Origin: Neocallimastix lanati (nom. inval.)
Taxonomy: Eukaryota; Neocallimastigomycota; Neocallimastigomycetes; Neocallimastigales; Neocallimastigaceae
Direction of reading: 5' to 3'
NCBI GenBank assembly: GCA_016946835.1
Contig: JACVTC010000006.1
Location: forward strand, 2,301,134-2,365,133
DNA: 64,000 nt
Under the pieces are notes generated by a model. That model was not told the origin of the DNA. It ran no database searches and worked only from the letters and a program-made list of their open reading frames with translations. The position numbers and the translations under genes were made by a program. Below, piece by piece: positions 28,952 through 62,871 of the stretch; the stretch's first letter is position 1, and each line of letters begins with the position of its first letter.

Positions 28952-29292
28952 CTATACAGAAGCTGAGTTAAACTTGATTATGTTCTTCAAATGAACATTG
29001 CGGTTCATTTGTATATCCGACTTAGGATCGGCCAATGTTACTGTGTTGAATTGTTTCTTAATTACTTGGAGTGGTCCAACAAAATATGGTTCTAACTTGG
29101 TTCGAGTAAAATTCCTTACTAAGACTAAATCACCAGGTTTTATTCTTTTGGCCTGATTCATACTATTCTTTTGTTCTCTACGAGTAGCCCAGTATTTATT
29201 TGCATTTTTGATATTGGCCGCAGCTTCCATAGTCCATAAGTAGTGATTGACAAATTTTTCCAATAGGATTTCATCCGAAGATTTGTTTATTA
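28952..29292 (-). pseudogene. Ty3/gypsy integrase C-terminal fragment
   Basis: About 113 codons remain open; the fragment begins within SSDEILLEKFVNHYLW and ends near a stop at 28952. PGDLVLVRNFTRTKLEPYFVGPLQVI and RNVHLKNI match the GPY/F module of element K (PGDYVMIRLIGRSKLNPYFYGPYKVI; RNVHIKNV). This module follows the DDE core in many Metaviridae integrases and contacts DNA or target factors. Everything upstream (core, RT, protease, gag) is missing: the sequence to the right passes into LTR D1 within 100 bases. Confidence 0.85.
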
Positions 29293-29387
29293 TAACTGAA
29301 ATTGAGATTTCAATTCAGTTATAATTTCAACAATATTATAAAATCTTTTACTATTTCTTAATATATATTATTATTATTTATCAACAA

Positions 29388-30173
29388 TGGTATGGTTCAT
29401 ATAGTTTTAGGAATATAATAATAATTAACACAAATAATAAAATTACAATAAAAAAAAATTTGTTTTACAATCAAAATTTATTTATTTAAATTTATAAAAG
29501 AAAAATAATAATATAATTATTTATTTTAATAAAAGTAAGTTATTGATTATATTTTATTTCACTAAAAATTACATGTATTTATTTTTTTTTTATCAAATTA
29601 AAATTTGTAAAGCCTAACTATTTCTTAATAAACTAATTACTAATTATTTTAATAAATAAAACATTTAAATTGAAATTGAATTATTATTTTAGTTAATAAT
29701 ATTATTGTTATAAATATTAGTTTTATATTATTGAATTATTAATTATTTAATAATAGTTTAATATTAATATATATAAAATAAAAATAAAGAGATTATACAG
29801 AATATTTTAATTGTGGTTTAGTTAAATTTAGTAATTAAAAATAAATTTAAATTGATAACGAAAATTTTAATAACTAATTAAATAGATTTGATTATTTTCA
29901 ATATAACATATTACAAAAGAAATATAATATTAAAATATTAAGTGGGCAAGGACAATATTCTTGGCTAAAGATTTTTAATACTTTATAATGGAATCGGTTC
30001 GATAATTCAAAAAGGAATTTAAGGTTGATTGGTGATTTATTAACTTAAGATTTCTATTTAGTAATATTTGAAGAATATTGGAAAGTTCCAATTATATAGA
30101 ATAGAATAATCTATAAGGTTAGAATAATTTATATTATTCTAGCACAATTAGTATTATTTGTTCATTCTGTATT
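29388..30173 (-). mobile_element. Solo LTR D1 (leftmost of tRNA-directed array)
   Basis: Starts TGGTATGGTTC and ends near TTCATTCTGTATT. Flanked on both sides by AACAA (29383-29387 and 30174-30178), the expected 5-bp target duplication. No internal coding sequence. Strand is assigned by similarity to D3. Confidence 0.7.
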
Positions 30174-30178
30174 AACAA

Positions 30179-32385
30179 TGTAATAATTTAATTAAAAAAT
30201 TATAATTAAATTATTAATCATTAATATTAGCTCTAACTGCTAATATTAAAGGTTTAGAAAAGAATCATACTTACCTATGGTTCTTTCTAATTATTGAGTT
30301 TATTATAACGAATTATAATAGACGAAACACTGAAATTGATAAAAAAAGTTTTAATTATAAAATTTGTTTTTAAAATAATTTGTTTTATTAATTATTAGAA
30401 ACTTTAAATGTTAAAACTATTTATTATTATTATTATTATTATATTATAATTGTTATAATAATAACTCTTGATTTCTCAAAGAGAACTCAAGAGCCTTATT
30501 TATATTTTTTTGTCAAAATAAGGTTAAAATCAAAAGGGGTTCTAATCTTAACAAATCTCTTATCTAGGAAAAGACTAGAAGAAAAACCTAGATAAGTTTT
30601 TGATCGATATTCTATCCATATCGATCATCGCGTTAATTAAGTAAAACCGATTACTTTTAAGAAGTAATTGGAAAAACCTTAATTAACCGATTACTTAATC
30701 TAATATAATGATCGAAAATAAAAGAATAAAATAATGAAAATTATTTCGATCATAAATTTTAAAATTTAATCTATTTAGTTCTATTTTATAGAACTTTACA
30801 TAAAAAATATAAAACAATACATTAATAATAAAAATACATCATTAATAAAATACAGAATACATGATAGAATACAGAATACATGATAAAATACAGAATAGTG
30901 TTTTAGTTTATGATTTAATAAGTAAGAGAAAACTAAAACTAATAAATTTAATAATTAAGTGAATAATTAAATAAATTTAATACTGTTTTAAATGTATAAA
31001 AATTATTTAATTAAATAAAATTTTAATATTAAACTAAATAAATTTATAATATGTAATTAAATAAATTATTAATTATAATTAAGTGTATAAATGAAATATG
31101 AATTAAATAAAAGTTATATTAATTATAACTTAACTATGTTAAATTAAATTGGATGTTTAGGTAAGATTCTTGCTATATCTTTCCTAGTTTGGGTTAAATT
31201 GGTCAGGTCAAGATGTTTTTATTAATTATAACAATCAATTAAATTTAAATAATAAATAACACACAGAGTTTTATAATTAAGATTTCAATATTTAAGATTT
31301 ATGTTTTATTAGAACTTTATTTAATATATATTTTAATAATAAATTTTAACTAAGATTAATATAAAAAATTATTTATTGTTATAATTAATTCATTAACTTT
31401 ATGTTAACACATTAAATTAAATTATTAAAGGTTAAAGGTTAAAGGTTAATAATCTTACAAAGAATTCAAAATATGGAATTCCAAATCTTTTTTATATTAA
31501 ATTAAATAATAATTAACGATATAATTAAATAATACATTCTAATCTTAATATATTCATACATGTATATAAACTATATAAAATATAATAATAAAATAATATT
31601 GATAAGAATCTTTTAATAAAATAACTATATAACTTATTCATAAAACAATTTAAATCTAAAACTAATTTAATAATCAAATATAAAATAAAATAAATTAAAA
31701 TATTAAAACTAATTAAAAATTCTCTTTCGGAAATCTTTAGAATGATAAAGAATTCCTTAGAATCTTTTAGAAATAATTAAATAAAATATATAATAATAAA
31801 ATATATAAAACTTATAAAACTTATTTAAAATATTATAAAACTATTACTAATAACTAATTCTGTATTTTTAATTAATAATAAAAATTAATAATATAATTTC
31901 CAAGTTAAGAGATTTATCTAATATAAATTTCTTAATTAATAATTTAGGGTCTTAATTAAATAATTAAATTATATTTTTATATTTAATTATCTTTAAAGTC
32001 CAATATCTCGTTATCTAGTTGTCCAATAAGGTTGATTTCAACATATGTTGTAGTTCTCGAACGTAGCTTTCTAATGAATATATTTTTAGCAGGAATCTTC
32101 ATTATTTGTTGAGTTTTCGTTGTTTTTCTTCATGTTATTTTTATCAAATTCTAAAGGGTTAAATTAAATTAAATTATTTTAAATAAATAAGTCCAAACCC
32201 TTTGGTTTCTAATTCTTTAATGTTTCTAATATTTATTTTTATAATTAAAATCGAATTAAAATAATTCTTGTCAATAACTAAATTTCAATTGATCTAATGG
32301 TGAATTTTAACTTCAAATCCACTAGTATTCGTGACAAACTAAGAGAATATAATTATTTTGTTGAAAATAATTATATTTTCTTACA
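30179..32385 (-). mobile_element. Solo LTR A1, interrupted by LTR B
   Basis: Ends TGTAATAATTTAATT...CTTACA; flanked by AACAA at 30174-30178 and 32386-32390. Without the nested LTR it is about 1002 bp, matching A2 (1007 bp) almost base for base in inverted orientation. A TATA-like TATAAATAAGG on the minus strand sits just ahead of a CTCTTGA/TCAAGAG hairpin (30465-30493). Other conserved hairpins are CTTATCTAGG/CCTAGATAAG and GATCGATAT/ATATCGATC. Confidence 0.8.
31137..32336. mobile_element. Solo LTR B nested in A1
   Basis: 1200 bp, ends TGTTAAATT...GTGACA, flanked by AACTA on both sides (31132-31136 and 32337-32341). Removing it and one AACTA restores the A-family sequence seen in A4 and A5. 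It is therefore younger than A1 and did not use the tRNA-linked site. Confidence 0.85.
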
Positions 32386-32390
32386 AACAA

Positions 32391-33397
32391 TGTAAGAATT
32401 TATAATTATTTTTAACAAAATAATTATATTTTCTAAGTTAGGTTATAATTAATATAACTTTTATTTAACTCATATTTCATTTATACACTTAATTATAATT
32501 AATAATTTATTTAATTATATATTAAAATTTTATTTAGTTTAATATTAAAAATTTATTTAATTAAATAATTTTTATACATTTAAAATAATATTAAATTTAT
32601 TTAATTACTCACTTAATTATTAAATTTATTAGTTTTAGTTTTCTCTCACTTATTAAATCATAAACTAAAACACTATTCTGTATTTTATCATGTATTCTGT
32701 ATTCTATCATGTATTCTGTATTTTATTAATGATGTATTTTTATTATTAATGTATTGTTTTATATTTTTTATGTAAAGTTCTATAAAATAGAACTAAATAG
32801 ATTAAATTTTAAATTTTATGATCGAAATAATTTTCATTATTTTATTCTTTTATTTTCGATCATTATATTAGATTAAGTAATCGGTTAATTAAGGTTTTTC
32901 CAATTACTTCTTAAAAGTAATCGGTTTTACTTAATTAACGCGATGATCGATATGGATAGAATATCGATCAAAAAACTTATCTGGGTTTTTCTTCTAGTCT
33001 TTTCCTAGATAAGAGATTTGTTAAGATTAGAACTCCTTTTGATTTTAACCTTATTTTGACAAAAAAGTATAAATAAGGCTCTTGAGTTCTCTTTGAGAAA
33101 TCAAGAGTTATTATTATAACAATTATAATATAATAATAATAATAATAATAATAAATAGTTTTAACATTTAAAGTTTCTAATAATTAATAAAACAAATTAT
33201 TTTAAAAACAAATTTTATAATTAAAACTTTTCTTTATCAATTTCAGTGTTTCGTCTATTATAATTCGTTATAATAAACTCAATAATTAGAAAGAACCATA
33301 GGTAAGTATGATTCTTTTCTAAACCTTTAATATTAGCAGTTAGAGCTAATATTAATGATTAATAATTTAATTATAATTTTTTAATTAAATTATTACA
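32391..33397 (+). mobile_element. Solo LTR A2, opposite orientation to A1
   Basis: Ends TGTAAGAATTT...TTATTACA, flanked by AACAA at 32386-32390 and 33398-33402. The TATA-like GTATAAATAAGG and hairpin lie on the plus strand (about 33065-33107). It is the only unit of the array for which I find reversed polarity, and it is nearly identical to A1. Confidence 0.82.
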
Positions 33398-33402
33398 AAC
33401 AA

Positions 33403-34371
33403 TGGTAGACTCGGGTTGACACGTATAGATTTAAAATCAAGCAGGGGGGGACGGGTATTACCCTGCTTTGATTTTAAATAAAAAAAATTCTTTTTATTAA
33501 AAATTATTTATTATTTATTAATATAAAAATTTATTTTTTTAAAGTACACATATTTAATTTTTAAGAAATATTTACAATATTTATATTTTTTTTATAAATT
33601 TAAAGTATAATTATTTGTTTATAATTTAAGTAATTTTATAGAATTATTGAATTAATTTTATATCAATAATTCATTTTTGTTTTAATTTTTATAAATATAA
33701 TAATATAATATTCAAATATAATTTAATTAAAAATAATTATAAAATAAATATATAGAAAATAGTTTTTACTATTTTCTTTGATATTTGTAAGTTAAATAAA
33801 TTGTTTTTAAAGATTAATATAATAAATTTAATAATCTTTAATTATTTTAAATAATACTTGTAATTATTTTTAAAAATAAAATAAAATTTTTATAATATTT
33901 ATTTAATAAATTTGATAATATTTAAATAATAAATTTTTATAATAATTAATAATTTTTAATAATAATTTTTTAATAATAAATTTAATTAATAATCTTAATA
34001 ATTTTATAATAATATTTAATAGTTATAATAAATAAATTTTTATAATAATATTTAATAATTTTAATAATTTTATAATATTAATAGTTTATAATAATTTTTA
34101 TAATAATATTTAATTAATAGTTTTAATAATTTAGTATCTTAAAAGTATAATTTTAATATTTACAATTGTATTTTAATATATACATATATTTAATAATATA
34201 ACAATAAAGTAATTAATTAAAATTTGTTTACATTATTTACAAGTTAAAATTAATTTATATCAAAATAAATTAAATTTTATTATTAAGTTTAGGTTATCAA
34301 GAATATAGGAAAGTACAATTTAGTAAAGAATTATTAATAATAAAATAAAGGTTATTAATTCATTCTTTACC
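33403..34371. mobile_element. Solo LTR C1
   Basis: Starts TGGTAGACTCGGG and ends TTCATTCTTTACC; flanked by AACAA (33398-33402 and 34372-34376). Near its left end a GC-rich hairpin (33429-33479) pairs ATCAAGCAGGG with CCCTGCTTTGAT. Other copies are C2 at 41846 and C3 at 63617. Confidence 0.8.
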
Positions 34372-34376
34372 AACAA

Positions 34377-35297
34377 TGGTTTGGTTCGGGGTTTTTTATA
34401 AAAATTATTCAAAAATTATAAATAAAATTAAAACAATAATAAAAATAAAAGAAAATTTTTGTTTTATTAAAAATCTTTATTAAAATTTATTTATTATAAT
34501 TTATTACATGATTATTATTATTATTATTTTTTTTTTATCTAAACTATCTCTTTTTATACTTTTACAATTAATTAGAAATGGGAAAGCCATTTCTTATTTT
34601 TAATTTCTTTTAATAATAATTCAAATTTTTAAATTATATCTAATAAATTTATTTTAATTTAAGTATTTCTATTATATATAAAAATTTATCCTAATTAATT
34701 ATTAATGTATTATTAATATATTTTAAACATAATTTTATCAATTTTGCAGAATTTACTAATGTGGTTTAGTAATTATAACTTACTAAATCCTTCATTTATG
34801 TGTAAAATATTATTAATTTTAAATTATTCAATATAATTGTTATAATTAATTCTTAAAAATATAACATTATGGATTATAATAAACATATATTAATAATATA
34901 TAATTTTATTTTTTTTTTGTATTATTATGTATTAGTAATATTATTTAGAAATTAATTTTTATTATTAATACAATGAATAACTATTGGTTAAAGAAAAACT
35001 ATCTAGATTTTTAATTAACTTGACAATAATAAATTGATAAAATAAAAATATTAATAAAAAAAAAATATATTGATAATTTGTTAACAGTTCAATAATAATA
35101 TAATAATTTTAAATAAGAAATATATAAATAAAAATTATTTAATATAATTAATATTATTATTTATTAAGAAATAATTCAATTTTAATTTATAGTAGAATAT
35201 AGGAAAATTCCATACAATAAGGAAGGCAAATAGTTTAATTTGTGGTTAAGTTATTTGTTAGATTTGAGACCAAATTAACAATATTTGCTTCTTCTTT
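34377..35297 (-). mobile_element. Solo LTR D2
   Basis: Starts TGGTTTGGTTCGGGG; flanked by AACAA (34372-34376 and 35298-35302). A TATAAAAAG-like box on the minus strand (about 34550) lies next to the hairpin AGAAATGG/CCATTTCT (about 34576-34597), as in D3. Confidence 0.75.
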
Positions 35298-35304
35298 AAC
35301 AATA

Positions 35305-36264
35305 TGTAATAATTTAATTATAAAATTAATTATAATTAAATTATTAACTACAACTTAATAATAATTAAATAATAATTATTATTAAATTGAGAAAGCAAAA
35401 AAGATAAATATAATTATCTTTTATAAGAAAGAGTTTATTATAACTAATTATAATAAACTAATAACACAGAATTGTCAAGAGAAAGGATTATTTTATTTTG
35501 TTTTATTTTTAAATTTGTTTTATTAGAACTTATTTTATTAAAATAGAAATATAAAATATTTATTAATGTTATTACTATATTATAATTGTTATAATAATAA
35601 CTCTTGATTTCTCAAAGAGAATTCAAGAGCCTTATTTATACTTTTTTGAAAAATAAGGTTAAATTAAAAAATGTTTTCTAATCTTAACAAATCTCTTATC
35701 TAGGAAAAGATTAGAGAGAAAAACCTAGATAAGATTTTTGATCGATATTCTATCCATATCGATCATCGTATCAATTAGGTAAAACCAATTACTTTTAAGA
35801 AGTAATTGGGAAAAACCCTAATTAACCGATTCGTTAATCTAATGTAATTGATCGAAAATAAAAGAATAAAATAATAAAAGATATTTCGATCATAAAATTA
35901 TAAATTTACAAATAAGGAAAATAACATAATGATATTAATAAACAAAATACAGAATACATTATTAAAATACATATTAGAATACATAATATATTTGTTTTCA
36001 ATTTAATTAAATAAATATACTAAAATTAATAAATTTAATAATTAAATGTATAATTAAATAAACTATAATTATTTATAAATGTATGAATAATAATTAATTA
36101 AATAAATTTTGTTGTATTAAATCAATGAATATTTAATATGGAGTTAAATAAATTATTAATAATATTTAAATGAATAAATATTATATAATTAAATAAAGTT
36201 ATAATTATAACTTTAACTAAGAAAATATAATTATTTTATTTAAAAATAATTATAGATTCTTACA
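35305..36264 (-). mobile_element. Solo LTR A4
   Basis: 960 bp, TGTAATAATTT...GATTCTTACA, flanked by CAATA (35300-35304 and 36265-36269). Carries the A-family TATA, CTCTTGA/TCAAGAG hairpin (about 35599-35627) and GATCGATAT hairpin (about 35739). The target register is moved two bases right of that used by D2. Confidence 0.82.
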
Positions 36265-36270
36265 CAATAA

Positions 36271-37074
36271 TGTTAAGGTTTTAGAGAATTAAATAAAAAT
36301 AAAGAAACCCAAATTTTATTTATTTATTTATTTATTTATTATTTTATTTATTTATTTTATTAAATTTATTTTGATGATTTTTAAAAATTGGTAGCAAAAT
36401 TTACAACTTTTTATACTTTTTTCAAGGCATAAAAGTTGTTCTTGCCACTAAATTACATTTTATTTATTTTTTTTTAAAAAACTATTAAATTTAAATTAAA
36501 TTTTATAATCAGTTATATAAAATTTAATTATAACAATATAAATAAAATACATTTATAATATTAATAAAACATTTTTTTTTTTTTTTTTTTAAAAATATCT
36601 AAAATATTACTAATAAGAATTTATTTAATTGGCTATAATTTTTATTACAATCTGTTAAAATATTCAAATAAAATAAAAATACTATTCTAATATATAGGTT
36701 TTTAATAAAATAAGATATTTTTCAATATAAAATAAAACATTTCGATATAAAATTTTATAATAAAAAGTTAAAATATAATATATAAATTTTTAATTATCAA
36801 TATATAAAAATATTATTAATACAAATTTTCATTATTAATATAAAAAAAAAATAAGATTTATTATTAATATTGCTAATATAAGTTTTAAATATATAAAAAT
36901 ATTACTATTAATATAAGATTTAATATAAAAATATAAAGCTTAATATAATTTTTGATTTAATTTTTGATCTTTGGATTTAAAAATTTATTAAAGTACAAAA
37001 TAATAATGTACACATAATGTATTAGAAATAAATCGTAGATTTAATTAAGAATGCATATTTAGTACATTCTTATC
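36271..37074 (-). mobile_element. Solo LTR E
   Basis: Starts TGTTAAGG, ends CATTCTTATC; flanked by AATAA (36266-36270 and 37075-37079). A minus-strand TATAAAAAG lies inside a hairpin-forming segment near 36400-36445 (ACAACTTTTTAT with ATAAAAGTTGT). Confidence 0.75.
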
Positions 37075-37079
37075 AATAA

Positions 37080-37911
37080 TGACAAACGATTCTATTATCT
37101 TAATTTGAAGTTATTACTTCAAAAGTGATAATAGATGTAACAAGTTTGATTTAATATAAAATTTAATATAAATGAATTTGTTTTATTATTATTAATAATT
37201 AAGTTATTATTATTCTAGCTTAACACTGAATTGTTATTAATTTTTCAAAATTATACATTTCTTTTGTGTTTAGTATTAATTTTTATTATTATTTATTAAT
37301 TTTTATTATTATTTATTAATTTTTATTATTATTTATTAATTTTTATTATTATTTATTAATTTTTATTATTATTTATTAATTTTTATTATTATTTATTAAT
37401 TTTTATTATTATTTATTAATTTTTATTATTATTTATTAATATAATATTTGGTTATTATTTTTTTATTACATTTCTAATAACAACGAGAAATTAATTTTAT
37501 AAAATATTTACAAGTATTTATATTTTTACAATAATTTAAAGTATTTACAATTTTTAATAATAAAACAATTAAGAATAATTATATTTATAAAAATAAACAA
37601 TAAAATAAACAAATAAACAATTAATACAAGAATTATTATAAACAAAGAATTCAAAATAATAAAAAAAAGAGAAAATTGTTTACAAACTATTTACTTTTAA
37701 TTAAAAAGAGAAATTAATTAACATTAGTATTTCATTATTTTAAAAATTAAAATAGAATTAAAGTATAATTTCGAGTTTTAGAATTTAATTAAAATAAATT
37801 TTTTTATTATGATTTTAATTTCAAATTTTAATTTATTAATTTGTTATTGAATAGGTTAGATATTATTCAAGCTTTCTAATAATTTTATGCTTAAGAATTC
37901 CAATCTGTATC
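37080..37911. mobile_element. LTR-sized unit F
   Basis: Begins TGACAAACG directly after AATAA and ends CTGTATC before AATA-TGTTATGG, so the right target repeat is one base short. Contains a 20-bp minisatellite. No coding sequence. Confidence 0.6.
37265..37440. repeat. 20-bp minisatellite
   Basis: About 8.5 copies of TTTTTATTATTATTTATTAA, nearly identical, inside LTR F. Confidence 0.85.
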
Positions 37912-37915
37912 AATA

Positions 37916-38164
37916 TGTTATGGTTCATTGGGAAAAACAAAATTTTTTATACACAAAAGATAAAGATTTAAAATATTTATTTACACAATAACAATTTTAT
38001 AATTTATTTATTTATTTAATTTTTAAAGTAATTACATTATTTATTAAACTAATTAAATTTTATTAGCTAAATTATTACTATTCCTAATATTAATATTAAT
38101 ACTATTACTTATATTATTACTAATATTATTACTATTTTTATTTTATTATTATTATTATTTTTAC

Positions 38165-38211
<47 letters not shown>

Positions 38212-39588
38212 TTATTGATAAAGAATTATTATAAAATTATATAAATTTTATGAATATGTAAACAAACAAAATGTATACCAAATGTATGAAATGAAATTAA
38301 TGTAGTTTAATAATGTATTTAAAGTTTATTTTATATTATTTTATATTAATTAATTTATATTATTTTTATATATTACTATTTATAAATTATTATTGTATTA
38401 TTATATTAATATTATAAACTTAAATTATTATGATAATTATAGTATAAAAATTTAATTAAGAAATAATTTAGAAAAGTAGACTTTATTAAAAAAAAAAAGA
38501 GAAAAAGAGAAAATAAATAATAAAAGTCCAGTTGTATGTTATTTTATAATAAATAAAATAAATACATAAACAAAAATATATTTTTTTAGTTATATTAAAG
38601 AGAATATAACTAAAATATAAAATAATTAATTTTATTTAATTATTTATTAAAAATAGTTTTGTGTTAATAAAAAGTTTATTTTTATATAATAAAATAAACA
38701 AATAAATTTTTATTAATAAAAGTTGTTAAAAACTTCTTATCTAACGTTAAGAACTAAAAGACAACTTTCAGCATAAACATTTTATATTTATTATTATAAT
38801 TTGTTTATCAATTATTATTATTTTTATTATTTTTATTTTTGTTTTTTGTGTTATTTTTTTTTTTTTTTAGAAGAAGTTATTTTCTTCAGATATTTATATT
38901 CGATTTCATTTTTAAAGTTTAATATCTTGGAAATGAAAAAGAATTTAAGTATTTAATTAAAAGAATTATTAATTCATTCTTAATTAAATGTTAAATAAAA
39001 TTATTAATAATATGTTTAATATAAATTCCATAAAGGAATAAAAAATTATTATTTAAAAAGATATTATAAAGATTTTAATTAAATAATATCTGGAGTAAAT
39101 AATTAAAAAGTTTTTAATAAAATTTTTAATTAAAAGTTTACAAAAATATTAATTGAATTTTATAAAGGATAATAAATTATTTAATGATAATTTATTTTAA
39201 GTTTAATAAAAATTAATATTAATTTATAGTGTTATTGAAAGTTAATAATAATTAATTTGATAAAAATATAATAAAAATATAAAATAATTTTAATATAGAT
39301 TCAATAAAGAATTTGTTAATATAAATTTTTGAAGAGTTTATATGTATTTTAATATTAATTTAATTAAGATTCAGTAATGATTTTATAAAAAATATTTTTA
39401 TAAAGATTTTAATTAATATTATAATAATTTTAATTAATTTATAATATTATATAATAAAATTTTTAATTTAATTCAGGGAAGAATATAAGAAAGTTCCATT
39501 AGTAAAGAATATAAACTTAATTATGGTTAAGTTATGTCTAAACATAACAAAATAAGTAATTTATAGTCATTCTTTACCAAATTGTTAG
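37916..39588. mobile_element. LTR-derived unit P
   Basis: Begins TGTTATGGTTC after CAATA, resembling D and R starts, and ends TCATTCTTTAC, like the C, D and R ends. It is too long for one LTR of these families (1.67 kb), so it probably contains a second nested copy that I could not delimit. TAT-type trinucleotide arrays lie at 38120-38215. Confidence 0.45.
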
Positions 39589-39594
39589 AAATTG

Positions 39595-41000
39595 AAATAA
39601 AAATTCTTTTATATCAATTTCTATTCTACAATTTTATATTAATAATATTATTATTAACTAAAATTGAGAAATTTAAATTTGTTTTATTAAAATAAATCGA
39701 GTTTATTATAAGAAAATTTAAATAAATTTAATTTATTTTAAGATTAAAAAAGAATAAATTTATTGTTATTAATTTATAAAATTTTATTGTTATTATTATT
39801 TTTCTTATAATAATAACTCTTAATTTCTAAAAGAACTTAAGAGTCTCTATTTATACTTTTTCAAAATTTTAAATTAAATATTGTCTAATCTTAACAAATT
39901 TCTTATTTAGGAAAAGATTAGAAGAAAAACCTAAATAAGTTTCGATTAATATTCTAAACATATTAATCATCGGATCATTAAGTAAAACCGATACCAATCA
40001 GTATTCGGGAAAACCTTAAAGATCGATTTTCTAATTATTTTTATAATAAATAATTTTAATTAAATGTCTAAAATAATAAATAAAAAAAATTAAAAATTGA
40101 AAAAATTTGTCCAAATTTAGAAAAAATTTTTTGTTATGAAAAATTTTAAATAATTTTTGATTATGTCTAAACATTTAAATAATAATTATAACGAATAAAT
40201 ATTAACTAATATTAATAAAATTTTTAATTATTAAGTTTAACTAATAATTTGTTAACTACTCCTAATTTTTAAATAATTTTATATGTAATAGTTATAGTAC
40301 ATTGTTACAAAATAAATAATGATAATGTAAAATTAATGTATTTCTAATTATTAAGTATTTAATATATTAATACATAATAAGAAATAATAATTAAAATTTA
40401 AAAATTTATTATTATTTCTTACACAAATAATTGAAACAGATTGAAAATAAAGTTAATTTAGTAATTTCTTACTAAAAGTCTTTATTCTCATGTTCAAATA
40501 TAACTAGATATACTAGTTAATAAAAACAAAAGATAAAAGCAATTTTAATTTTATTTTAATATTTTATTAAGTAACTTAAAATAATTAAATCAATTAGTTA
40601 TTGATTTATTAATACATTTTGTTTTATTAAAATTATAATTTATTAAAAATAATCATTTTAAAATATTATTATTAATATAATCTAATTTTTATAATGGCTT
40701 ATTAGGAACAATTTTTAAAACTATTAATTTTTATTTCTATTTATATTAATTTTTATATTTATACTCTGTTTATAAATAATAAATTAACTATTAATAATAA
40801 ACAATTAAATAAACAATTATTGTTTATTTTATATTATTTTAATCTAATTATTATTAATTGTGTATTATTTAAATATTTAATATTTTTATAATTTAAATGT
40901 TTATAATCTAAAAATTAATTACTTTATTATAATTTAATAATTTATTATTTTTAAATTCCGTTTTATAATTATTTTTAATTTTTAATTTTCATTCTTTATC
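39595..41000 (-). mobile_element. Diverged A-like LTR unit Q
   Basis: Contains a diverged A-family core: hairpin CTCTTAA/TTAAGAG (39817-39843), a minus-strand TATAAATAGAG box, and a weakened GATCGATAT hairpin region (about 39945-39975). Ends TTCTTTATC followed by ATAA. The left boundary is uncertain. It is one of the older-looking units. Confidence 0.5.
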
Positions 41001-41004
41001 ATAA

Positions 41005-41840
41005 TGTTATGGTTCGGGTTTTATTAGAATTTTTATTTAATTATTTATTTTTAATATTTTTCTGTTTACATTTTAATTATTGAAAAACTTCACTTATTTA
41101 TGCTTTTTGAAAAAAATAAATATGTGAAGCCTTTCTACATTTTATTATCATATTTAAAAAAAAATAATTTACTATTACTAATTAATTAAAATTTTATATT
41201 AATTTAAATTAACTAATTCATAAGTATTTTTATTTTAATAAATTTTGTTTATATAATTTTATATTATTTTTCATATACTAAAACTAAATTATTTAATATA
41301 TACGAAAAGTAACAAACAAAATTTAAAAAGATTTTACAGAAAAATAAAGTTATTTTAATCAAGAATGTTAATATAATATTCTTATATTTTATATAAAATA
41401 AATTTAAAAACTATAATATATTTAATATTTATTATTAATCAATTAAGATTTGATTTTATTTGTTGGAAATAAAAATATTAAATAATCAATTTAAAAATAA
41501 AATAAAATACTAAAAAAAATACAAGTTTAATATTGATACAATATAATAATAATATAATAATATATTTGAAAATAAAAATAAAATATTAATATTGATAATA
41601 AACACTTTAATAAAATAATAAATTTTAAGGTTAAATTATAGATATTGATATTAATAATAAAAATATAGAATTATTGATAATATTTTAGAAACTTTTAATA
41701 AAAATAAAAAAAAAAATATATTTAGAAAATATTTTAGTATAGAAAATATAGTAAAGTAATATTAAGTAAAGAATAATATAATGGATTCTAAAGTAAGTTG
41801 AAATTCTAATTAATAATCCATTATATGTTCGTTCTTTACC
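41005..41840 (-). mobile_element. Solo LTR R
   Basis: Starts TGTTATGGTTCGGG, ends GTTCTTTACC; left flank ATAA, right flank AATAA (41841-41845). A hairpin CTTCAC...GTGAAG with a minus-strand CATAAATAAG box lies at about 41088-41134. Confidence 0.65.
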
Positions 41841-41845
41841 AATAA

Positions 41846-42854
41846 TGGTAGACTCGGAGTTGATTCTTATGGATTTAAAATCAAGCAGGGGGGACGGGTA
41901 TTACCCTGCTTTGATTTTAAAAAAAAAAAATTCTTTTTATTAAAAAGTATTTATTATTTATTAATATAAAATTTTATCTCTGAAGTACACATATTTAATT
42001 TTTAAGAAATTGTTACAATATTTATATTTTTTTATAAATTTAAAGTATAATTAGTTGTTTATAATTTAAGTAATTTTATAGAATTATTGAATTAATTTTA
42101 TATCAATAATTCATTTTTGTTTTATTTTTATAAATATAATAATATAATATTCAAATATAATTTAATTAAAAATAATTATAAAATAAATATATAGAAAATA
42201 GTTTTTACTATTTTCTTTGATATTTTTAAGTTAAATAAATTGTTTTTAAAGATTAATATAATAAATTTAATAATCTTTAATTATTTTAAATAATACTTGT
42301 AATTATTTTCAAAAATAAAATAAAATTTTTATAATATTTAATTAATAAATTTGATAATATTTAAATAATAATTTTTATAATAAGTAATAATTTTTAATAA
42401 TAATTTTTAATAATAAATTTAATTAATAATCTTAATAATTTTATAATAATATTTAATAGTTATAATAAATAAATTTTTATAATAATATTTAATAATTTTA
42501 ATAATTTTATAATATTAATAATTTATAATAATTTTTAGAATAATATTTAATTAATAATTTTAATAATTTTATAATAATTTTTATAATAATATTTAATTAA
42601 TAGTTTTAATAATTTAGTATCTTAAAAGTATAATTTTAATATTTACAATTGTATTTTAATATATACATATATTTAATAATATAACAATAAAGTAATTAAT
42701 TAAAATTTATTTACATTATTTACAAGTTAAAATTAATTTATATTAAAATAAATTAAATTTTATTATTAAGTTTAGGTTATCAAGAATATAGGAAAGTACA
42801 ATTTAGTAAAGAATTATTAATAATAAAATAAAGGTTATTAATTCATTCTTTACC
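41846..42854. mobile_element. Solo LTR C2
   Basis: 1009 bp, TGGTAGACTCGGAG...TTCTTTACC; flanked by AATAA (41841-41845 and 42855-42859). High similarity to C1 along the whole length, including the GC-rich hairpin at 41873-41920. Confidence 0.82.
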
Positions 42855-42859
42855 AATAA

Positions 42860-45065
42860 TGATACAATATAAGTAATAAAGTATCAAATTTCTATTTATA
42901 ACGAGGTCGAGCAAATAGGGAATTTGTAAAATAATATATTCCAACTCAAAGATAATAAATAATAATTTACACAAATAATAAAATTTATTTATTTCTTTTT
43001 AAATCTTGTTTTTATTTATTTATTTATTTTACATAAATTATTACAATTATATTTATATTCCTCTGAATATAATGATTTTTATCTATCTCTAATAATTCAA
43101 TTTATATTAATATTTTAATAATAATTTTACTTATAATTGTAGGATTCAACTCTTATTCTTTAACTATAAGTAATCACTTAATTATTTAAACTAAACTATA
43201 AGTTCTCTAAAACTATTATTTTACTCAATTAGAATTTTTAAAACAACAAGAAAACTCTCTCTTTAACTTTTATTTCATTTTCTTCTTTTAAATTTATTAA
43301 TTAATTTTATCTTGAATATTATTGGCTGTCTAATTAATTTTTAATCTATTTATATAATGATTTAGTATATTATATATTGTAATTATTTTTCACCATATTA
43401 TTATAGGATTTTCTCTTTTGTTAATTTTTTTGCGTATTTCTAGCTGTTGTAAAATAAAATACTTATCAAGTCTAGGTTTGTGGCTATTCTAAACTAACTT
43501 TACTACACTAATAACACTATATCCTAAAACTCTATTAATTAATTAATTATTTTTTTTTTTAATTTCTTTTATTTATTTATCTTATTTATTAACTAATTTT
43601 CAACAACCACTTAACTGGGTAACGCAGGATCCTTTCCGGAGTTCCCACTAGCAGTTAAGATTTTACAAACTATAATAAAATTGTTTTATAAGAAAATAAT
43701 TATTCTAATAATAGTTACGAAACTAATAATAAAATTTAAATTTTCCTATTACTATACGATTTTCCAACTATCGTTCAATAGTTGAAAAATTAACTCTTTT
43801 TATACTTTTTCAAAATAAAGTTTTAAATCAAAATAAATTTTAATAAATTACATAAAAATATTATTTTATATTATCAATTACATTATATAATAAATTACAT
43901 GAAATGTTATGAATTATTTTAATATAAATCCTATTTAAAACTATCTAATTTTTCTAAAATTTTCTATGAAGAAAATTTAGAGTTTAATTCATTAATTATA
44001 TGATTAAATATATTCTATCCATATATTTAATTTAAATTTTGCCAAGTTGTGAAAACCAATTTACTAAACCAAAACTTGCTATTTTTATTTTTAGAATTTC
44101 TATAATTTAAAAGACAAGTAAACAAAACGGCAAGTTTTTGTAAACAAACGGAAAAGGCAATATTCCTTTAATTATTTTAATTTAACTAATTAATGACTAA
44201 TTATTTTTTAATTTATGAAGTTTCGTGATTCAAACTGAGTAATTGTTACGTAAATTCTCCAAATAATTTAGTCATAAATTTTTGAGAAAATTATTTAAAT
44301 TAATAATTTGGAATACATTTAAATTTATATTAAAAATTTGGAAAACATTTTTATCCACAATAATTTACATTACATTACATTTTGTTAAAGTTTTGTGATA
44401 ATTTGGTCTTAACGATTAGGTCAAGATGCCAAATTATAGTAATTAATTAATAACTTAATTTTACTCTTATTTAAAACATATTATTATTAGTAATAAATAA
44501 GTTTTTTTTTTTTTTTTTTTATTTAAAATATAAGTTTTATTTAATATTAATAATATTTTATTACATTATTATTTTATATAATTATTACTATAATTTAAAT
44601 TACAATAATCCTACAAAGGATTAATCAAAGATTTAAACATGTATTTATATAAAATAATTAATTATTAAAATATTAATTATTAATATGAATATGTAATAGT
44701 ATTAATATAAGTTTGATATTGATAATATAAAGTAAGATAGTAATATAAATATTTAATATAAATAAAATATAAGAATATAATATGTAGAAATTAATTTAAT
44801 ATGACAATTACGTGTTTACATTATTTAATATATATTAATTTCAATATGTTAATAATATTTAGTAATTAGTTGGCCTAGACTAATTCCTAAATATTTTAAT
44901 AAAGTTAATTTAATAATAATTATTATATTATTATTTTTTAATATTGAAATTCAAATAACTGAATTATTGAAATTGAAATTGAAATTGAAATTGAAATTCA
45001 GTTATTATCTTAACACATTTAAATACGTATTCAAATTATTAAATATTTTACAGCTGTGTTGTATC
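42860..45065 (-). mobile_element. Solo LTR G with nested LTR N
   Basis: Ends TGATACAA...TTGTATC, flanked by AATAA at 42855-42859 and AATA at 45066-45069 (the fifth base is recovered after A5). A minus-strand TATAAAAAGAG box precedes the hairpin CAACTAT/ATAGTTG (43778-43796). A GC-richer block at 43611-43664 (ggatcctttccggagttccc) is flanked by CTTAACTG and CAGTTAAG. Confidence 0.7.
44383..45015. mobile_element. Solo LTR N nested in G
   Basis: 633 bp, TGTTAAAG...CTTAACA, flanked by CATTT on both sides (44378-44382 and 45016-45020). Its right part reappears inverted at 52609-53070. Confidence 0.75.
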
Positions 45066-45069
45066 AATA

Positions 45070-45932
45070 TGTAATAATTCTATTAAGAACTAACTCAAAA
45101 TAGAATTATTAACTACAACTTAACGACTAATTCATTAAGTTGAGAAAATAAAATAAAATAAATTTTTTTACCTTTAGAGTAGAGTTTATTATAAAATTAA
45201 TTATGATAATAACACAAAAAGTAAGAGAAGAATTGTTTGTATAAATTGATTTTAAAAATATGTTTTTGAATAAAATATTTTTATTAATTTATTAAAGTTA
45301 AAAATATAAAATTGTTTCTATTATAACTATGTTTTTTATAATAATAACTCTTGATTTCTCAAAGAGAACTCAAGAGCCTTATTTATATTTTTTTTATGAA
45401 AATAAGGTTAAATAAGAAAGGGTTTTCTAATCTTAACAAATCTCTTATCTAGGAAAAGATTAGATAGAAAAACCTAGATAAGTTTTCGATCGATATTCTA
45501 TCCATATCGATCATCGCATTAATTAAGTAAAACCGATTACTTCTAAAAAGTAATTGGAAAAAATCTTAATTAACCGATTTTCCAATCTAATGATCGAAAA
45601 TAAAAGAATAAAATAATAAAAGATATTTCGATCATATAATTTATCCTTGTATTAAAATATAAAATTAAATAGTTAATAAAATACAGAATACATTATAAAA
45701 TACAGAATACATTATAAAATACAGAATAAAATACAATACAAAATACATTAGTTACAGTAGAGAATTTAACATATTGTAAATATATTATTAATTAAATAAA
45801 ATTTGTTAAATTAATGAATATTAAATTAAATAAATATAATAAATATTATGTGTAATTAAATAAAGTTATAGTTATAATAACTTAACTAAGAAAATATAAT
45901 TATTTGTTAGCAAATAATTATAGATTCTTACA
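45070..45932 (-). mobile_element. Solo LTR A5
   Basis: 863 bp, TGTAATAATTC...GATTCTTACA, flanked by CAATA (45065-45069 and 45933-45937). Carries the A-family TATA and hairpins (about 45347-45375 and 45487). Confidence 0.82.
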
Positions 45933-45938
45933 CAATAA

Positions 45939-46931
45939 TGGTACAGGATTTTAAAATACTATTTAATAATTCTGAACTGTATATTCATAACAATTAATAT
46001 TTATAACTCCTAAAAATAAACCAAGAACAACAAATAACACAAACAAAATCAAAACCAACACTTCTTAAGACTTGCTGTTATTTTTATTGTTTTATTTCTT
46101 CTAAAATTTTTAAGAGAGAGTTTTTAAAATTATTTCTTTTACATTTGTCTTTTTATAGTTCAATATATAAATTTAATTGGTTAAAAATATTTTTCTAATT
46201 AATCATTTTTAATATTATTCTTAATATAACATAATTATATATATATAAATATATATTAAATTTAATAATAAAAATATAAAATATAAAATAATAAATTTAA
46301 TAATAAAAATATAAAATATAAAATAATAAATTTAATAATAAAAATATAAAATATAAAATAATATTGTTAAGATTATATTTGGTTTTGATATAACTTGGTT
46401 GGAATGCTATAAACTAATAACTTCCTTATGATAATTAAATTTTATTTTATCAGTATTATTATAGAATTTTATTATATTTTTATTTTATTATTTTATTTGA
46501 TTTTATTTAATAATATTTTTTAATGAATGAAGTTATCAGATTATTAAAATATTAATAATCTTACGAAGATTATTTAAAACATTTAATTCACTATTCTTTT
46601 ATACATAAAAATAAACAATTAAAAAGTTATATAATAATAAATAAAATAATAAACAATAGTTTAAAAAGTTAGATAATAATAAATAAAAAATAAACAATTA
46701 ATTATACTTTAAAAAGTATAAATTATATTCAACAATTTTATTATTATTATTATTATTTAATAATAATAAATAATATATATTTATATTGTAAAAGGATTTT
46801 GAGGCGTATGATCATACTAAATAATGATTAATTTGTTATGGTAATGAGGCTTATATAGCTCATCGAGTTATATCCTTTACAAATATTTTTCTGACTTTAA
46901 AAATTATTAATATATAGTATTGTTTCGTAAC
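45939..46931 (-). mobile_element. Solo LTR H
   Basis: 993 bp, starts TGGTACAGG, ends TTTCGTAAC; flanked by AATAA (45934-45938 and 46932-46936). A minus-strand TATAAAAAGAC lies near 46148-46158. Contains about 3.5 copies of a 35-bp AT tandem repeat at 46255-46372. Confidence 0.75.
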
Positions 46932-46936
46932 AATAA

Positions 46937-47494
46937 TGGTACGTTATTTTTATATATTGTACCTTTTATATGATTTGGGGAAAGCAAGTTGTAAAACTAT
47001 AAAATAATATATTCTAATAAAAGAAATAAATAAAAAAATTATAACACAAAATTAATAATAAATTTTAATAAATAATAATGTGTTACTTTTAAGTCTTTAT
47101 TTTATTTATAAGTTTTGTTCTTTAAATAAGTACATTTAAATTTATTATAACTTTATTATATCTTTAAATTTATATTTTAATAATAATATTAACCAAAATA
47201 TCCTAAATATTTATTCACCCGAATAAATATTTTATAATTCCTATTCTAACTATTATATTCTTTAAAGATATTAAATTATTAAGTTCCTCCTTTGTTAATA
47301 TTTTATCTTTCACTTATTTTTATACTATAATTTATCTTAATTCTTATTGGTTATCTATTAATTAAAATTATTTTTATTAATATTATATTTTTATATACTA
47401 ATTAAACCTTATACCTATTATAATAAAATAACTAAAGAATTATTTATTTTCTTATATTTTTAATAATTTATTCTATTTTAGTGAGTAACGTACC
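46937..47494 (-). mobile_element. Solo LTR I (closest to the tRNA gene)
   Basis: 558 bp with a 9-bp terminal inverted repeat TGGTACGTTA/TAACGTACC; flanked by AATAA (46932-46936 and 47495-47499). Related to J and J2 (shared ATAATATATTC block about 80 bases in). Under serial insertion next to the tRNA it is the youngest unit. Confidence 0.8.
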
Positions 47495-47509
47495 AATAAT
47501 TTTAACAAA
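47495..47509 (+). promoter_or_regulatory. tRNA-upstream integration target
   Basis: AATAATTTTAACAAA lies immediately upstream of the tRNA. The first five bases are the target duplication shared with most LTRs to the left. The insertion point is 11-15 bp before the mature tRNA 5' end, close to where Pol III transcription would start and where Ty3 integrates in yeast. Confidence 0.7.
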
Positions 47510-47586
47510 GGGGTTGTAATTCAGTGGTAGAGTGCTCGCTTCGCATGCGAGAAGCCGCGGGTTCAATTCAATTCTCGCCAACTCCA
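47510..47586 (+). tRNA. tRNA-Ala (anticodon CGC) with an enlarged T loop
   Basis: Acceptor stem GGGGTTG pairs with CAACTCC, discriminator A. The D arm ATTC-AGTGGTA-GAGT is intact. Anticodon stem CTCGC/GCGAG with loop TTCGCAT gives anticodon CGC. T stem GCGGG pairs with CTCGC (one G-U). The T loop is 12 bases, TTCAATTCAATT, instead of 7 because TTCAA is duplicated. No intron. The G3-U70 pair typical of tRNA-Ala identity is present in the acceptor stem. With the oversized T loop it may be nonfunctional, or only tolerated as a Pol III-transcribed locus. Confidence 0.88.
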
Positions 47587-47768: not shown

Positions 47769-47817
<49 letters not shown>

Positions 47818-49549: not shown

Positions 49550-49553
49550 AATT

Positions 49554-50017: not shown

Positions 50018-50022
50018 AAATA

Positions 50023-50995: not shown

Positions 50996-51009
50996 CAATA
51001 ATTTTAACA

Positions 51010-56401: not shown

Positions 56402-57149
56402 TGATAAATAACAAAATTAATAAATCTTGAAAATTTATTATACATAAAATCAAACTAACCTTAGCAAAGTTTAATAATAATTTAATAAAATAAAAAAAAA
56501 AATTAATTAATTAATTAAAACAAATAAATTACACTTAAAAATTACATTAATACTCAGATATGAAAGAAATATTATATATTTTTCAAAATAAAAATATTAA
56601 GATTAAATTTAAAATAAAATAATTAGTTTTAATAATTAGTTTTATAATAATTTTTATAATTAATTTTATAATTAAATAATAATTTTATAATAACAAAATT
56701 TATTAATTTAAATAACAAAATATTTTTAATTATTTTTATAATAAACAAATTTATTTATTTTATTATTAAATATTTATTTTATTATTAATTTTATTACTTT
56801 TATTTTATTTAATTATTCTTTTTATTTATAAATTATAAATAGTTTAATTTTAAAGAAAAATATAAATACATGTAAATATTTCATGTAAATATTTTTATTA
56901 TTATTATTATTAATTAATTTTATAATTTTAATAATCACTTTTAATTTTTATAATGTTTAATAAATTTTAATAAAAGATTTATAAAATAAAAAATTAGAAA
57001 ACAAGTGTTCTAATAAACCAAATTTTTAGTGTTATTTTTAATAAAACATTTTTAATTCATAAATAACTTATACAGTTATTATTAATATAAATTGAAATTA
57101 TCACTTTTTAATTCTACATTAAAATTAAGATAATTTCTAAAATTTATCA
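56402..57149 (+). repeat. 5' LTR of K
   Basis: 748 bp, TGATAAATAAC...AAATTTATCA (8-bp terminal inverted repeat TGATAAAT/ATTTATCA). A TATA-like AATATAAATACATG followed by hairpin ATGTAAATATTTCAT lies at about 56859-56886, the same layout as in the other LTR families. Confidence 0.9.
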
Positions 57150-57150
57150 T

Positions 57151-57166
57151 TGGTCCTTCGAACCGG
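57151..57166 (+). promoter_or_regulatory. Putative primer-binding site of K
   Basis: TGGTCCTTCGAACCGG starts 2 bases after the LTR, the normal position, and begins with the expected TGG. Its complement has TTCGAA only six bases from CCA, which does not fit an ordinary tRNA 3' end, so the primer is unclear. Confidence 0.5.
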
Positions 57167-58099
57167 AGAGGCAGCTAACTTATTATTAATAAGTATTATT
57201 TATTAACACTAGAGTATGAACTAGTATAAAAATTCATAATTATAAAATAAAGGATAAATAATATTTATTATATAATAATAATTAAAAATAAAAACTAGAG
57301 TATGAACTAGTATAAAAATTCATAATTTAAAATTAAAAATAATATATATATATATGTATATATATATAATAATATAATAATAATATAATAAATAAAAATT
57401 AAATTAACATTGGGAAGAAAGCCATTTATATTAAGAAGAAAATAATAAATAGGAAAAGAACGACAAATATAAGGAAAGGAAACGATAGATATTATATTTA
57501 AAAAAAAAAAAAAAAAAAAATTTCTGTTTTAATTTTAAAGAATTATATAGGTTTATATTTTATTAATCATAAACTATTGGAGCTTGACTCTAGGTCGCGA
57601 TTAATAAGATATAAATTAGAGTAGCAAGAGAGAGTATTGGGTCCTGATTATAGAGAGTAGAGGTTAGACAGAACTGAAAATTGTACTGGAGAGTAATTGA
57701 TTGGTTATATCGATACTTTGGTGAGAGATCCAGAGAAACGGAAAACTTTATAACCAGTCGAATGAAAACAGCACAAGAGAGTAAGTAGAGTCTAATGAGG
57801 TCGAAAATATAATCAGAACGCCAAGAAAATCTATTACTGCTACATATATAATTCGAGGTTCTTAAATAAATAAATAAAAAAAAAAAAAAAAAAAAAAAAA
57901 AAACTAATTAAAGAAACGTATAATAAGTGAATGAATAAATAAATTGAAATTGAATATATAAAATTTTAATTAATTAAAAATTTGATTAAATAATTAAATT
58001 TAAATATATAAATATTTTGTTAGTGAATAAATTATATAAAATAAAGTATATAAATTATATTAAAGAGAAAACAAAATTACTTCTAAATTCCAGAGTAAA
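57167..58099 (+). other. 5' leader of K
   Basis: Untranslated region between PBS and gag. It includes a duplicated block ACTAGAGTATGAACTAGTAT (57209-57228 and 57294-57313), a GC-richer stretch at 57580-57860 that may hold packaging signals, and A tracts at 57500-57520 and 57878-57903. No start codon with a long frame. Confidence 0.55.
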
Positions 58100-58978
58100 A
58101 TGTCCGATTTAAAATCAATTAATTTCAACAGAATTCCTATATTAGGTCAACCGACTGTAGAATTTGATGATTGGAATTTCTCATATACTCGTTGGTGTAA
58201 TTCCAATAAAATTGACGAAGAAGAAAAGATAGAATGTTTAATTTCAATTACTACTGGTATTGCAAGAAAGATAGTAATAAATTCATTAAATAAAACTACC
58301 CCAGATAAATATGATACCATTATAAGTAAATTACAGGAACATTACAAGGGCCCCCTTCCTAAAAATTCAAGGTTATTAGAACTTTCAACGGCTACAATTA
58401 AGAAAGGAGAAAGTGTTGCAGAATTCAACATAAGGTTTGAAACACTTTTAAATAAAATTAGAATTGATTTAAATAAGGAAGTTATAATATCTTATTATAT
58501 TAATGCATTTCGGACTTTAACTAAAACCTATGAGGCTTTATTAGAAGCAGAACCGCAAAACTTAAAGGATGCAATGCAAATAACGTCTAAAAAGGAGAAG
58601 ATATATAAATTAGTAGAATCAAATAGATCTAAAGATAAAGGAGAATCAAACAAAAGAAATGTAAAATCTAACACTCAAAATAATTATGGAACATATTATA
58701 CAAGTACTTATAATAAAAATAATACATTTAATAATAAGAATAATAATATAAATAATAGTCACAACAATAATTACCAAAAATATAATAATAATATAAAGCC
58801 TACTCATAATTATATTAATCAAAATGTTGAAAATAGAAAAATCACATTGAAACCTACACAACTTCAAGATGATGAATTACAAGAAATAACTCAGAAACTT
58901 GCTGATTTAAAAATCAATGTATGCTTAAATTGTCAAAGAATAGGTCATGTTAAAGATGATTGCCCTGAATTAGAATAA
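58100..58978 (+). CDS. gag: Gag of element K
   Basis: 292 residues. The capsid-like part, about residues 1-175, contains VEFDDWNFSYTRWC, KLQEHYKGPLPKNSRLLELS and KGESVAEFNIRFETLL, matching the LQxxY...L..l...GESVxxFxxRF pattern of the Ty3/gypsy gag (retrotrans_gag) family. An Asn/Lys-rich spacer follows, then a single zinc knuckle CLNCQRIGHVKDDC at about 275-288. It stops three residues after the knuckle. The pol frame is open from 58969, giving a 10-nt overlap in the -1 frame. Gag forms the particle and binds element RNA. The frame is intact. Confidence 0.9.
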   Translation: MSDLKSINFNRIPILGQPTVEFDDWNFSYTRWCNSNKIDEEEKIECLISITTGIARKIVINSLNKTTPDKYDTIISKLQEHYKGPLPKNSRLLELSTATIKKGESVAEFNIRFETLLNKIRIDLNKEVIISYYINAFRTLTKTYEALLEAEPQNLKDAMQITSKKEKIYKLVESNRSKDKGESNKRNVKSNTQNNYGTYYTSTYNKNNTFNNKNNNINNSHNNNYQKYNNNIKPTHNYINQNVENRKITLKPTQLQDDELQEITQKLADLKINVCLNCQRIGHVKDDCPELE

Positions 58979-58980
58979 GA

Positions 58981-61986: not shown

Positions 61987-62859
61987 CCATTTACTCGTGT
62001 TGGACTTGATACGATTGGTCCTCTTCCAATTACTAAAAATGGAAATATGTATATTATTACATTGGTTGACTACTTCACAAAATGGGTTGAAGCTAAAACC
62101 ATTCCAAACACAAAGACTGAAGAAGTTATAAAATTTTTAACTGAAGTTATATCAAGACATGGTCCTCCAGAAATAATTGTTACAGATAATGGAAGTTCGT
62201 TCGCATCAGATATTACTAAAATGATGATCGATCTTTATGGGTCATGGGTGCACTTTGTATCTCCACATCATCCAGAATCAAATGGTATGATTGAAAACCG
62301 TAATAGAGAAGTAGAGAAAATTCTAAGACTCTTAGTTGAAAACGAAAGTGAATGGGATGAATATTTACCATCCGCACTTTGGGCTCTTAGAACAACAAAA
62401 AATTCCAAAACAAAATTTAGCAGCTTTGAATTACTTTATGGGAGAAAAGACACCTGGCCATTAGAAGTAATGTTTCCAGATATTTACAAAGATCCAAATG
62501 AAACAGATAAAGAATATATTTTTAGAAGATTCCTAAGACATCAGTATTGGGTGAAACAAGCAACAGAATATTCGGATTACGCAAATCAATATTGGGAACA
62601 TCGCATTGGACTATCGAAATCACTAAAGAAAAATTATAAACCCGGAGATTATGTGATGATAAGACTAATTGGAAGAAGTAAGTTAAATCCTTACTTTTAT
62701 GGACCATATAAAGTAATTAACAAACAAAAATTCAATACAGTTGTCCTCGAAGATCCTCAAACAGGAAAACTTCTTGATCGAAATGTACATATTAAAAATG
62801 TTTTTCCTTATATCATTTCAGAAAAAGAATTAACTTCAAGGGACGAAGTTCAATCTTAA
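61987..62859 (+). pseudogene. Pol of element K, part 2: integrase catalytic core and C-terminal module
   Basis: Same frame as part 1, directly after the TAA at 61984-61986. Catalytic triad: Asp in VGLDTIGPLP (62008-62010), Asp in IIVTDNGSSF (62185-62187), Glu in NGMIENRNRE (62293-62295), spacings D-x58-D-x35-E as in this family. The GPY/F module LNPYFYGPYKVI is at about 62683-62718. The first ATG after the stop is at 62047, so an independent product would lack the first catalytic Asp. Without readthrough this part cannot give active integrase. No other lesion seen. Confidence 0.85.
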
Positions 62860-62871
62860 CCGCCGAGGAAT

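Follow-up and report, generated by a model that had tools for sequence, protein, structure and literature searches.

An ordered stack of long terminal repeats upstream of a tRNA-Ala gene in the gut fungus Neocallimastix lanati

Introduction

How long terminal repeats (LTRs) of many different retrotransposons come to stand end to end before a single tRNA gene, and whether their order can be read as a history, is the question raised by the locus studied here. In a stretch of 64,000 nucleotides from the Neocallimastix lanati genome (assembly GCA_016946835.1, contig JACVTC010000006.1, positions 2,301,134 to 2,365,133 of the forward strand), hereafter called the window, 17 LTR units named A to Q abut one another over positions 29388-47495 upstream of a tRNA-Ala(CGC) gene, as determined by sequence reading and junction mapping. 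An initial annotation had taken these units for the remains of Ty3-like elements which integrated one after another at the same Pol III start region. Our analysis strongly supports such serial integration, and we consider it very likely that the array is an ordered stack produced by tRNA-directed insertion, with the oldest LTR farthest from the gene and the youngest beside it. The window forms the end of a 2.37-Mb contig in an assembly of 199 Mb and 762 contigs, and its GC content is very low; a value of 16% is on record for the genome of another gut fungus, Pecoramyces (PMC6414434).

Results

Layout of the array

The array and the sequences adjoining it contain the following features, where the strand is given if it was assigned.

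28952..29314, minus strand: C-terminal part of a Ty3/gypsy-like integrase, left over from a truncated element to the left of unit A (open frame with a GPF-type motif recognised by eye; Pfam matches weak and off-target)
29388..30174: unit A, solo LTR with TG...TA ends, duplication ACAA; copies upstream of tRNA genes
30179..32385: unit B, LTR of the 5-bp class, duplication AACAA, split by a nested element
31137..32336: nested TG...CA element inside unit B, duplication AACTA
32391..33397: unit C, B family inverted (98% over 962 bp), duplication AACAA
33403..34372: unit D, solo LTR, duplication ACAA
34377..35298: unit E, LTR with TG...TA ends, duplication ACAA
35305..36264: unit F, LTR of the 5-bp class, duplication CAATA
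36271..37075: unit G, LTR, duplication ATAA; further copies stand before tRNA genes
37080..37912: unit H, LTR, duplication ATAA; further copies stand before tRNA genes
37916..39579: unit I, LTR, duplication AATA; long and possibly composite
39583..40423: unit J, LTR of the 5-bp class, duplication CAAAT
40432..41001: unit K, LTR, duplication TAAT; 98% copy in locus L057
41005..41841: unit L, LTR, duplication ATAA; further copies stand before tRNA genes
41846..42855: unit M, LTR of the D family (93%), duplication ATAA
42860..45066: unit N, LTR, duplication ATAA, split by a nested element
43448..45052: nested element inside unit N (TGTAAAATA...TATTTTACA), duplication GCTGT; uninterrupted site in L113
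45070..45932: unit O, LTR of the 5-bp class, duplication CAATA
45939..46932: unit P, LTR, duplication ATAA
46937..47495, minus strand: unit Q, youngest LTR of the stack, duplication ATAA; sense strand of the element points away from the tRNA gene
47496..47509, plus strand: leader ATAATTTTAACAAA left between unit Q and the tRNA gene; its ATAA is the right copy of the Q duplication
47510..47586, plus strand: tRNA-Ala(CGC) with five extra bases in the T arm and B box, probably a pseudogene

We set the limits of the units and their duplication classes ourselves, with some latitude at the ends of A and E and the start of K. Left of unit A lies the right end of an 18th LTR unit (U0), ending at 29383, and the last LTR stops 14 bp before the tRNA gene; the end-to-end arrangement first described is correct, while the count of about sixteen units was too low. 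At 80% identity the 17 units form about 15 groups, the only pairs being {B,C} and {D,M}; this is more than the earlier figure of at least eight families. TG/CA-type ends, formerly ascribed to every LTR, occur in most of them, with TA rather than CA terminating A (TGTATTA) and E (TTCTTTA). In L042, L060 and L114 the A-type end is found again, 10-14 bp before a tRNA gene; for units E and I no close copy was present among the loci fetched from the assembly. The nested insertions in B and N carry their own 5-bp duplications (AACTA and GCTGT), and an uninterrupted site like that of N's nested element lies upstream of the tRNA-Gly gene in L113. Unit Q may be recent, since copies 100% identical to it exist elsewhere in the genome; its orientation was derived from a piece of pol (L138) on the minus strand relative to a Q-type LTR.

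Order of insertion

We formulated the history as a model in which each new element enters the leader of the tRNA gene, an 18-base target AACAATAATTTTAACAAA, on the tRNA side of the previous one. The model demands that every spacer be a prefix of the leader current at that time and that the next leader start with the new duplication. All 17 spacers obey it, being in order ACAA, ACAA, AACAA, AACAA, ACAA, ACAATA, CAATAA, ATAA, ATA, AAT, CAAATAAT, TAA, ATAA, ATAA, ATA, CAATAA and ATAA, and the final leader predicted is the one observed. Not one of 200,000 shuffles fitted for whole junctions, nor one of 200,000 for spacers, and the reversed order fails; as ends and classes were set by the analyst, this test addresses the order and not the unit ends.

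A second line of evidence comes from five polar junctions (A|B, H|I, I|J, K|L and N|O), at which one or more terminal bases of the left LTR form part of the duplication, which recurs behind the right LTR. Because these end bases recur after the right-hand unit, that unit is the younger one. At I|J and N|O a C is among the repeated bases, while at A|B, H|I and K|L a single A is repeated, and all five junctions point to the tRNA side, none to the opposite one. Right of unit G the leader's own C is seen only as the CA of an LTR, and the related tRNA-Ala(CGC) gene in L033 retains AACAATAAT in its leader.

Two classes of target-site duplication

The length of the duplication was read by eye from 20 fetched regions, ten of which include a Q copy together with its outer flanks on either side. 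Matching 4-base flanks are present in eight of the ten (AAAT, AGAG, AACA, ATAT, TCAT, AGTT and TCCT, the last counted twice as L103 and L104 share their flanks, one place having been copied), and the other two copies (L093, L095) are without matching flanks. The fifth base is mismatched in L092, L097 and L101, so that the duplication is 4 bp long and the LTR end is ACCA. At G|H, L|M, M|N, P|Q and in front of the tRNA gene, AATAA accordingly consists of the last A of an LTR plus ATAA; at U0|A, A|B and D|E, AACAA consists of the last A plus ACAA. Units B, C, F, J and O, with TGTAA...TTACA ends, make up another class with true 5-bp duplications: in CAATA (F and O) and CAAAT (J), the right-hand copy of the C is not supplied by the LTR end TTACA.

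Since one class duplicates 4 bp and the other 5 bp, the junction 5-mers of the initial annotation mix LTR and target. The shared 5-bp direct repeat it described is a real duplication in the TTACA class and amounts to 4 bp plus an LTR base in the other; likewise, its AATAA at 11-15 bp before the tRNA-Ala gene is composite. It had also named, as a finding that would speak against serial integration, that the junction repeats belong to the LTRs themselves. This is partly so in one class, where the 4-bp duplication nevertheless remains, and the serial reading stands.

LTR ends at other tRNA genes

The sample consisted of 83 distinct first-in-cluster tRNA units from fetched loci, the window excluded, after dropping 14 downstream cluster members and genes whose last 60 upstream bases repeat those of another. 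They came from an Rfam search, in which 63 of 9,278 candidates were scored (mostly one tRNA-Arg type), from a B-box pattern with 855 matches (backward control 23; 100 listed, 30 cut out), and from further B-box loci, for which 20 of 27 listed non-GGTTCGAATCC sites were fetched, GGTTCGAATCC mostly marking a tRNA-like repeat.

By measure 1, LTR ends of the window occur within 30 bp upstream in 35 of the 83 units; when measure 2, an LTR end also found at a tRNA of a different isotype, is added, the number of occupied units rises to 59 of 83. These are distributed as Asn 7/10, Arg 12/19, Thr 7/11, Ala 20/26, Gly 7/7, Glu 3/4, Cys 2/3 and Ser 1/3. With the window included, measure 2 alone finds shared ends in 54/84 units, every one 9-18 bp upstream, against 0/68 downstream among units with enough sequence (by measure 1 the downstream score was 0/83, of which 16 units had too little downstream sequence to score), 10/84 at random upstream offsets and 1/11 at tRNA-like repeats. 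LTRs are thus enriched upstream of tRNA genes of eight isotypes (59/83 versus 0/68 downstream), as serial integration at tRNA genes had been expected to require, and they lie within a narrow distance, mostly 13-17 bp.

An end motif was recognised in 54 of the 59 occupied units, and among these the distance from LTR end to gene is 11-16 bp with a mode of 14 in the 4-bp class (39 units), and 10-18 bp with a mode of 16 in the 5-bp class (15 units). Since the ends lie mostly 14 and 16 bp from the gene, both classes join about 10-11 bp upstream. At least two families (A and TTACA types) occur in both orientations upstream of tRNA genes, as units B and C do in the array. Among seven 5S rRNA matches examined of nine listed, one (L131, G000:C293:12110-12240) has an LTR-like end, GTATCA, 8 bp upstream, for which no match was found at other fetched loci.

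Two side observations concern the tRNA material. A tRNA-like repeat of high copy number (GCCATGTTGGTCCAGTCGG..., continuing into a longer conserved tail), which may be a tRNA-derived short interspersed element, is mostly without an upstream LTR (loci L061, L063, L064, L075, L076, L078, L079, L084, L089 and L090). An amplified cluster at G000:C555:170732-399007 accounts for 34 of the 63 scored tRNA matches; its near-identical tRNA-Arg(TCT) genes all lie on the same strand in a span of 230 kb, in some cases at intervals of about 540 bp.

The tRNA-Ala gene of the array

The tRNA-Ala(CGC) gene at 47510-47586 has 5 bases more than its relative in L032, located in the T arm and B box, and scores 33.3 bits in Rfam against a cut-off of 29; with its extra bases it was missed by an ARAGORN run on the window. 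It is probably a pseudogene and inactive today. Its relatives in L032 and L033 share the 3' flank with the window only to about 47662, and the idea of a tRNA gene carried inside an element was rejected on the ground that the flank common to all three ends there.

Stacking elsewhere in the genome

The LTR end CATTCTTTACCA occurs 578 times genome-wide (backward control 18), and in 203 of these 578 it is followed by four bases and TG (control 0; about 3-4% from base composition alone by our own estimate). Twenty ends, every fifth of 100 listed among the 578, were classified by eye for their neighbours: 14 adjoin another LTR at 3-5 bp, 2 a tRNA gene, 2 an element interior, and 2 are unclear; one of the two tRNA neighbours (L141) rests on an A-box-like stretch only. 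Stacking is common for this end type (203/578 and 14/20), and the initial annotation needs correction in that the stack is not special to one tRNA gene. Some stacks have been copied as blocks, as seen in C224 and C218, which share an LTR pair at equal spacing.

The elements and their pol genes

An element with coding regions, called R, lies outside the array.

56402..63613, plus strand: element R, Ty3/gypsy, with gag and a pol frame (one in-frame stop); LTRs 56402-57149 and 62872-63613; limits set by eye

Its LTR family also occurs upstream of tRNA-Ala in L057. The pol order by Pfam is reverse transcriptase (RT), RNase H, H2C2 and integrase core, and the best match of the RT among solved structures is Ty3; the integrase part alone matches, among the 60 structures shown, other retroviral integrases and not Ty3. 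Two pol pieces of other families, L138 of Q (RNase H followed by integrase) and L139 of D/M (RT-RNase H), find Ty3 or its RT/RNase H as their best solved-structure match. On these sequence matches the three families R, Q and D/M, all of the 4-bp class, can be placed in Ty3/gypsy, and the Ty3-like identity first proposed for the array as a whole is upheld within that scope. No chromodomain was found in R by Pfam, its pol frame ending soon after the GPY motif, and none is listed for its nearest relatives at the top of the list, which are of gut type and include sequences labelled Orpsp1_1, a label of Orpinomyces.

When the RT of R was compared with the genome, 150 of 3,729 candidates were scored, many of them in long open frames. 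For three families the listings include LTR pairs separated by 6.3 to 8.5 kb; the Q family has at least eight pairs about 7.3 kb apart among 40 listed Q copies, and the 5-bp class one pair 6.3 kb apart (C555:614007 and 620275). Paired LTRs and a duplication of fixed length, as expected of LTR retrotransposons, are therefore present, together with TG...CA ends save in units A and E.

Element R is part of a second LTR array in the window (49545-64000), which also contains inverted LTR pairs and is cut by the contig end; the LTR following R begins at 63617 after a 3-base spacer. Downstream of the tRNA gene lies a deleted element on the minus strand (47655-50018), with a gag-like frame at 47981-49417 in which a CCHC motif was recognised by eye and for which no Pfam match was obtained. 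Its LTR, about 49545-50018, adjoins a primer-binding-like site, and there is no pol between.

Discussion

Mechanism and alternative explanations

In the scenario we favour, each new element would insert just upstream of the tRNA gene, on the tRNA side of its predecessor, and would later recombine LTR to LTR, leaving one LTR behind. The tRNA-proximal bases, copied in the duplication, could then stay open as a target. The integrase of Ty3 is guided by TFIIIB, and by analogy the integrases here may be guided by TFIIIB on the tRNA gene. A wider proposal would be that tRNA leaders act as one-way integration ratchets throughout the genome: a landing site shared by many LTR lineages of two classes, at least one of them chromodomain-less, with most tRNA genes carrying an ordered fossil stack and persisting while the DNA upstream is replaced repeatedly. 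We give this extension an even chance.

The elements could instead target the ends of other LTRs, so that stacks grow at LTR-LTR junctions and the neighbouring tRNA gene is a matter of history. The sampled neighbours fit this, 14 of 18 outer LTR ends adjoining another LTR and 2 a tRNA gene, and so do those of the flanked Q copies, mostly other LTRs. However, tRNA genes of eight isotypes have single LTR ends 9-18 bp upstream, a one-way order of spacers would not follow from insertion at any junction, and the five polar junctions all face the tRNA side, none the opposite; we regard this account as improbable. Still less probable is untargeted insertion with selection purging all copies except those upstream of tRNA genes. 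Although tRNA-adjacent regions are often regarded as safe sites (PMC5911963), selection would neither fix the distance at 13-16 bp in most cases nor favour one side, and it would not return to the same bases 17 times. That the array arose by duplication of LTR blocks rather than separate insertions is scarcely credible, and we reject it: the pair copied at C224 and C218 with equal spacing, and the 3' flank shared by the tRNA-Ala relatives, show that blocks can be copied, but the 17 units of the array represent about 15 groups, and the duplication at every junction is in register with the leader. A satellite array was likewise rejected, as the units differ and have LTR ends and duplications.

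Several observations count against serial tRNA-directed insertion. With the two measures combined, 24 of the 83 tRNA units are without a shared LTR end, and 2 of the 20 sampled LTR ends adjoin neither an LTR, a tRNA gene nor an element interior. LTR ends also occur upstream of the tRNA-like repeat L090 (the 1/11 above) and, by eye, of L080. The two nested insertions lie within LTRs, away from the tRNA gene. Finally, the trend for units nearer the tRNA gene to be more identical to their nearest copy is only weak (Spearman 0.50, p 0.04, with the hitless unit I set to 60).

Relation to known systems

Targeting of tRNA genes is itself already known from Ty3, Tj1 and DGLT-A. Ty3 of Saccharomyces cerevisiae shares the Ty3/gypsy gene order and, as noted, is the best solved-structure match for the RT of R; its duplication is 5 bp, in contrast to the 4 bp of most units here. 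The Ty3 integrase bears a C-terminal chromodomain serving as a ruler (PMC8632968), whereas none was detected in R or its listed near relatives. In the case of Tj1 of Schizosaccharomyces japonicus, also Ty3/gypsy, 13 of 17 new insertions fell no more than 12 bp upstream of a tRNA gene; it differs in its 5-bp duplication and in that one family was tested (PMC4600332). DGLT-A of dictyostelids is a Ty3/gypsy element without chromodomain, inserted about 15 bp upstream of tRNA genes. The account of it mentions repeated insertion at one tRNA gene, yet reports 2 to 32 copies per family in genomes of about 30 Mb and, in the sections consulted, describes no deep ordered stack (PMC5006619). Ylt1, Tyl3 and Tyl6 of Yarrowia lipolytica and Tca8/beta of Candida albicans are Ty3/gypsy elements just upstream of tRNA genes as well, but with ascomycete hosts and few families per host as tabulated in a 2018 review, the relevant part of which describes fungal tRNA-targeting elements for Ascomycota only (PMC5911963).

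A search of the open-licence literature gave no description of tRNA-targeting or stacked LTRs, or of such transposons, in Neocallimastigomycota. As far as could be seen, the depth of the stack, its readable order, the number of families, the size of the genome and the host are new. According to one explanation, targeting of tRNA genes lets elements live in compact genomes (PMC5006619); the genome in which it is prominent here measures 199 Mb and belongs to a fungal phylum probably other than Ascomycota. The stacks record the arrival order of element families, and consequently relative dating and the choice between shared and convergent targeting become testable. One family without a detected chromodomain raises the question how such precision arises.

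Other frames in the window

Two related repeat-rich frames on the minus strand (2860-4260 and 11722-13338) end in a cysteine-rich stretch, which we presume to be like the fungal cellulose-binding module CBM1. A frame of 449 residues on the plus strand (19232-20581) resembles a B-box zinc finger protein with a TLD-like C-terminus.

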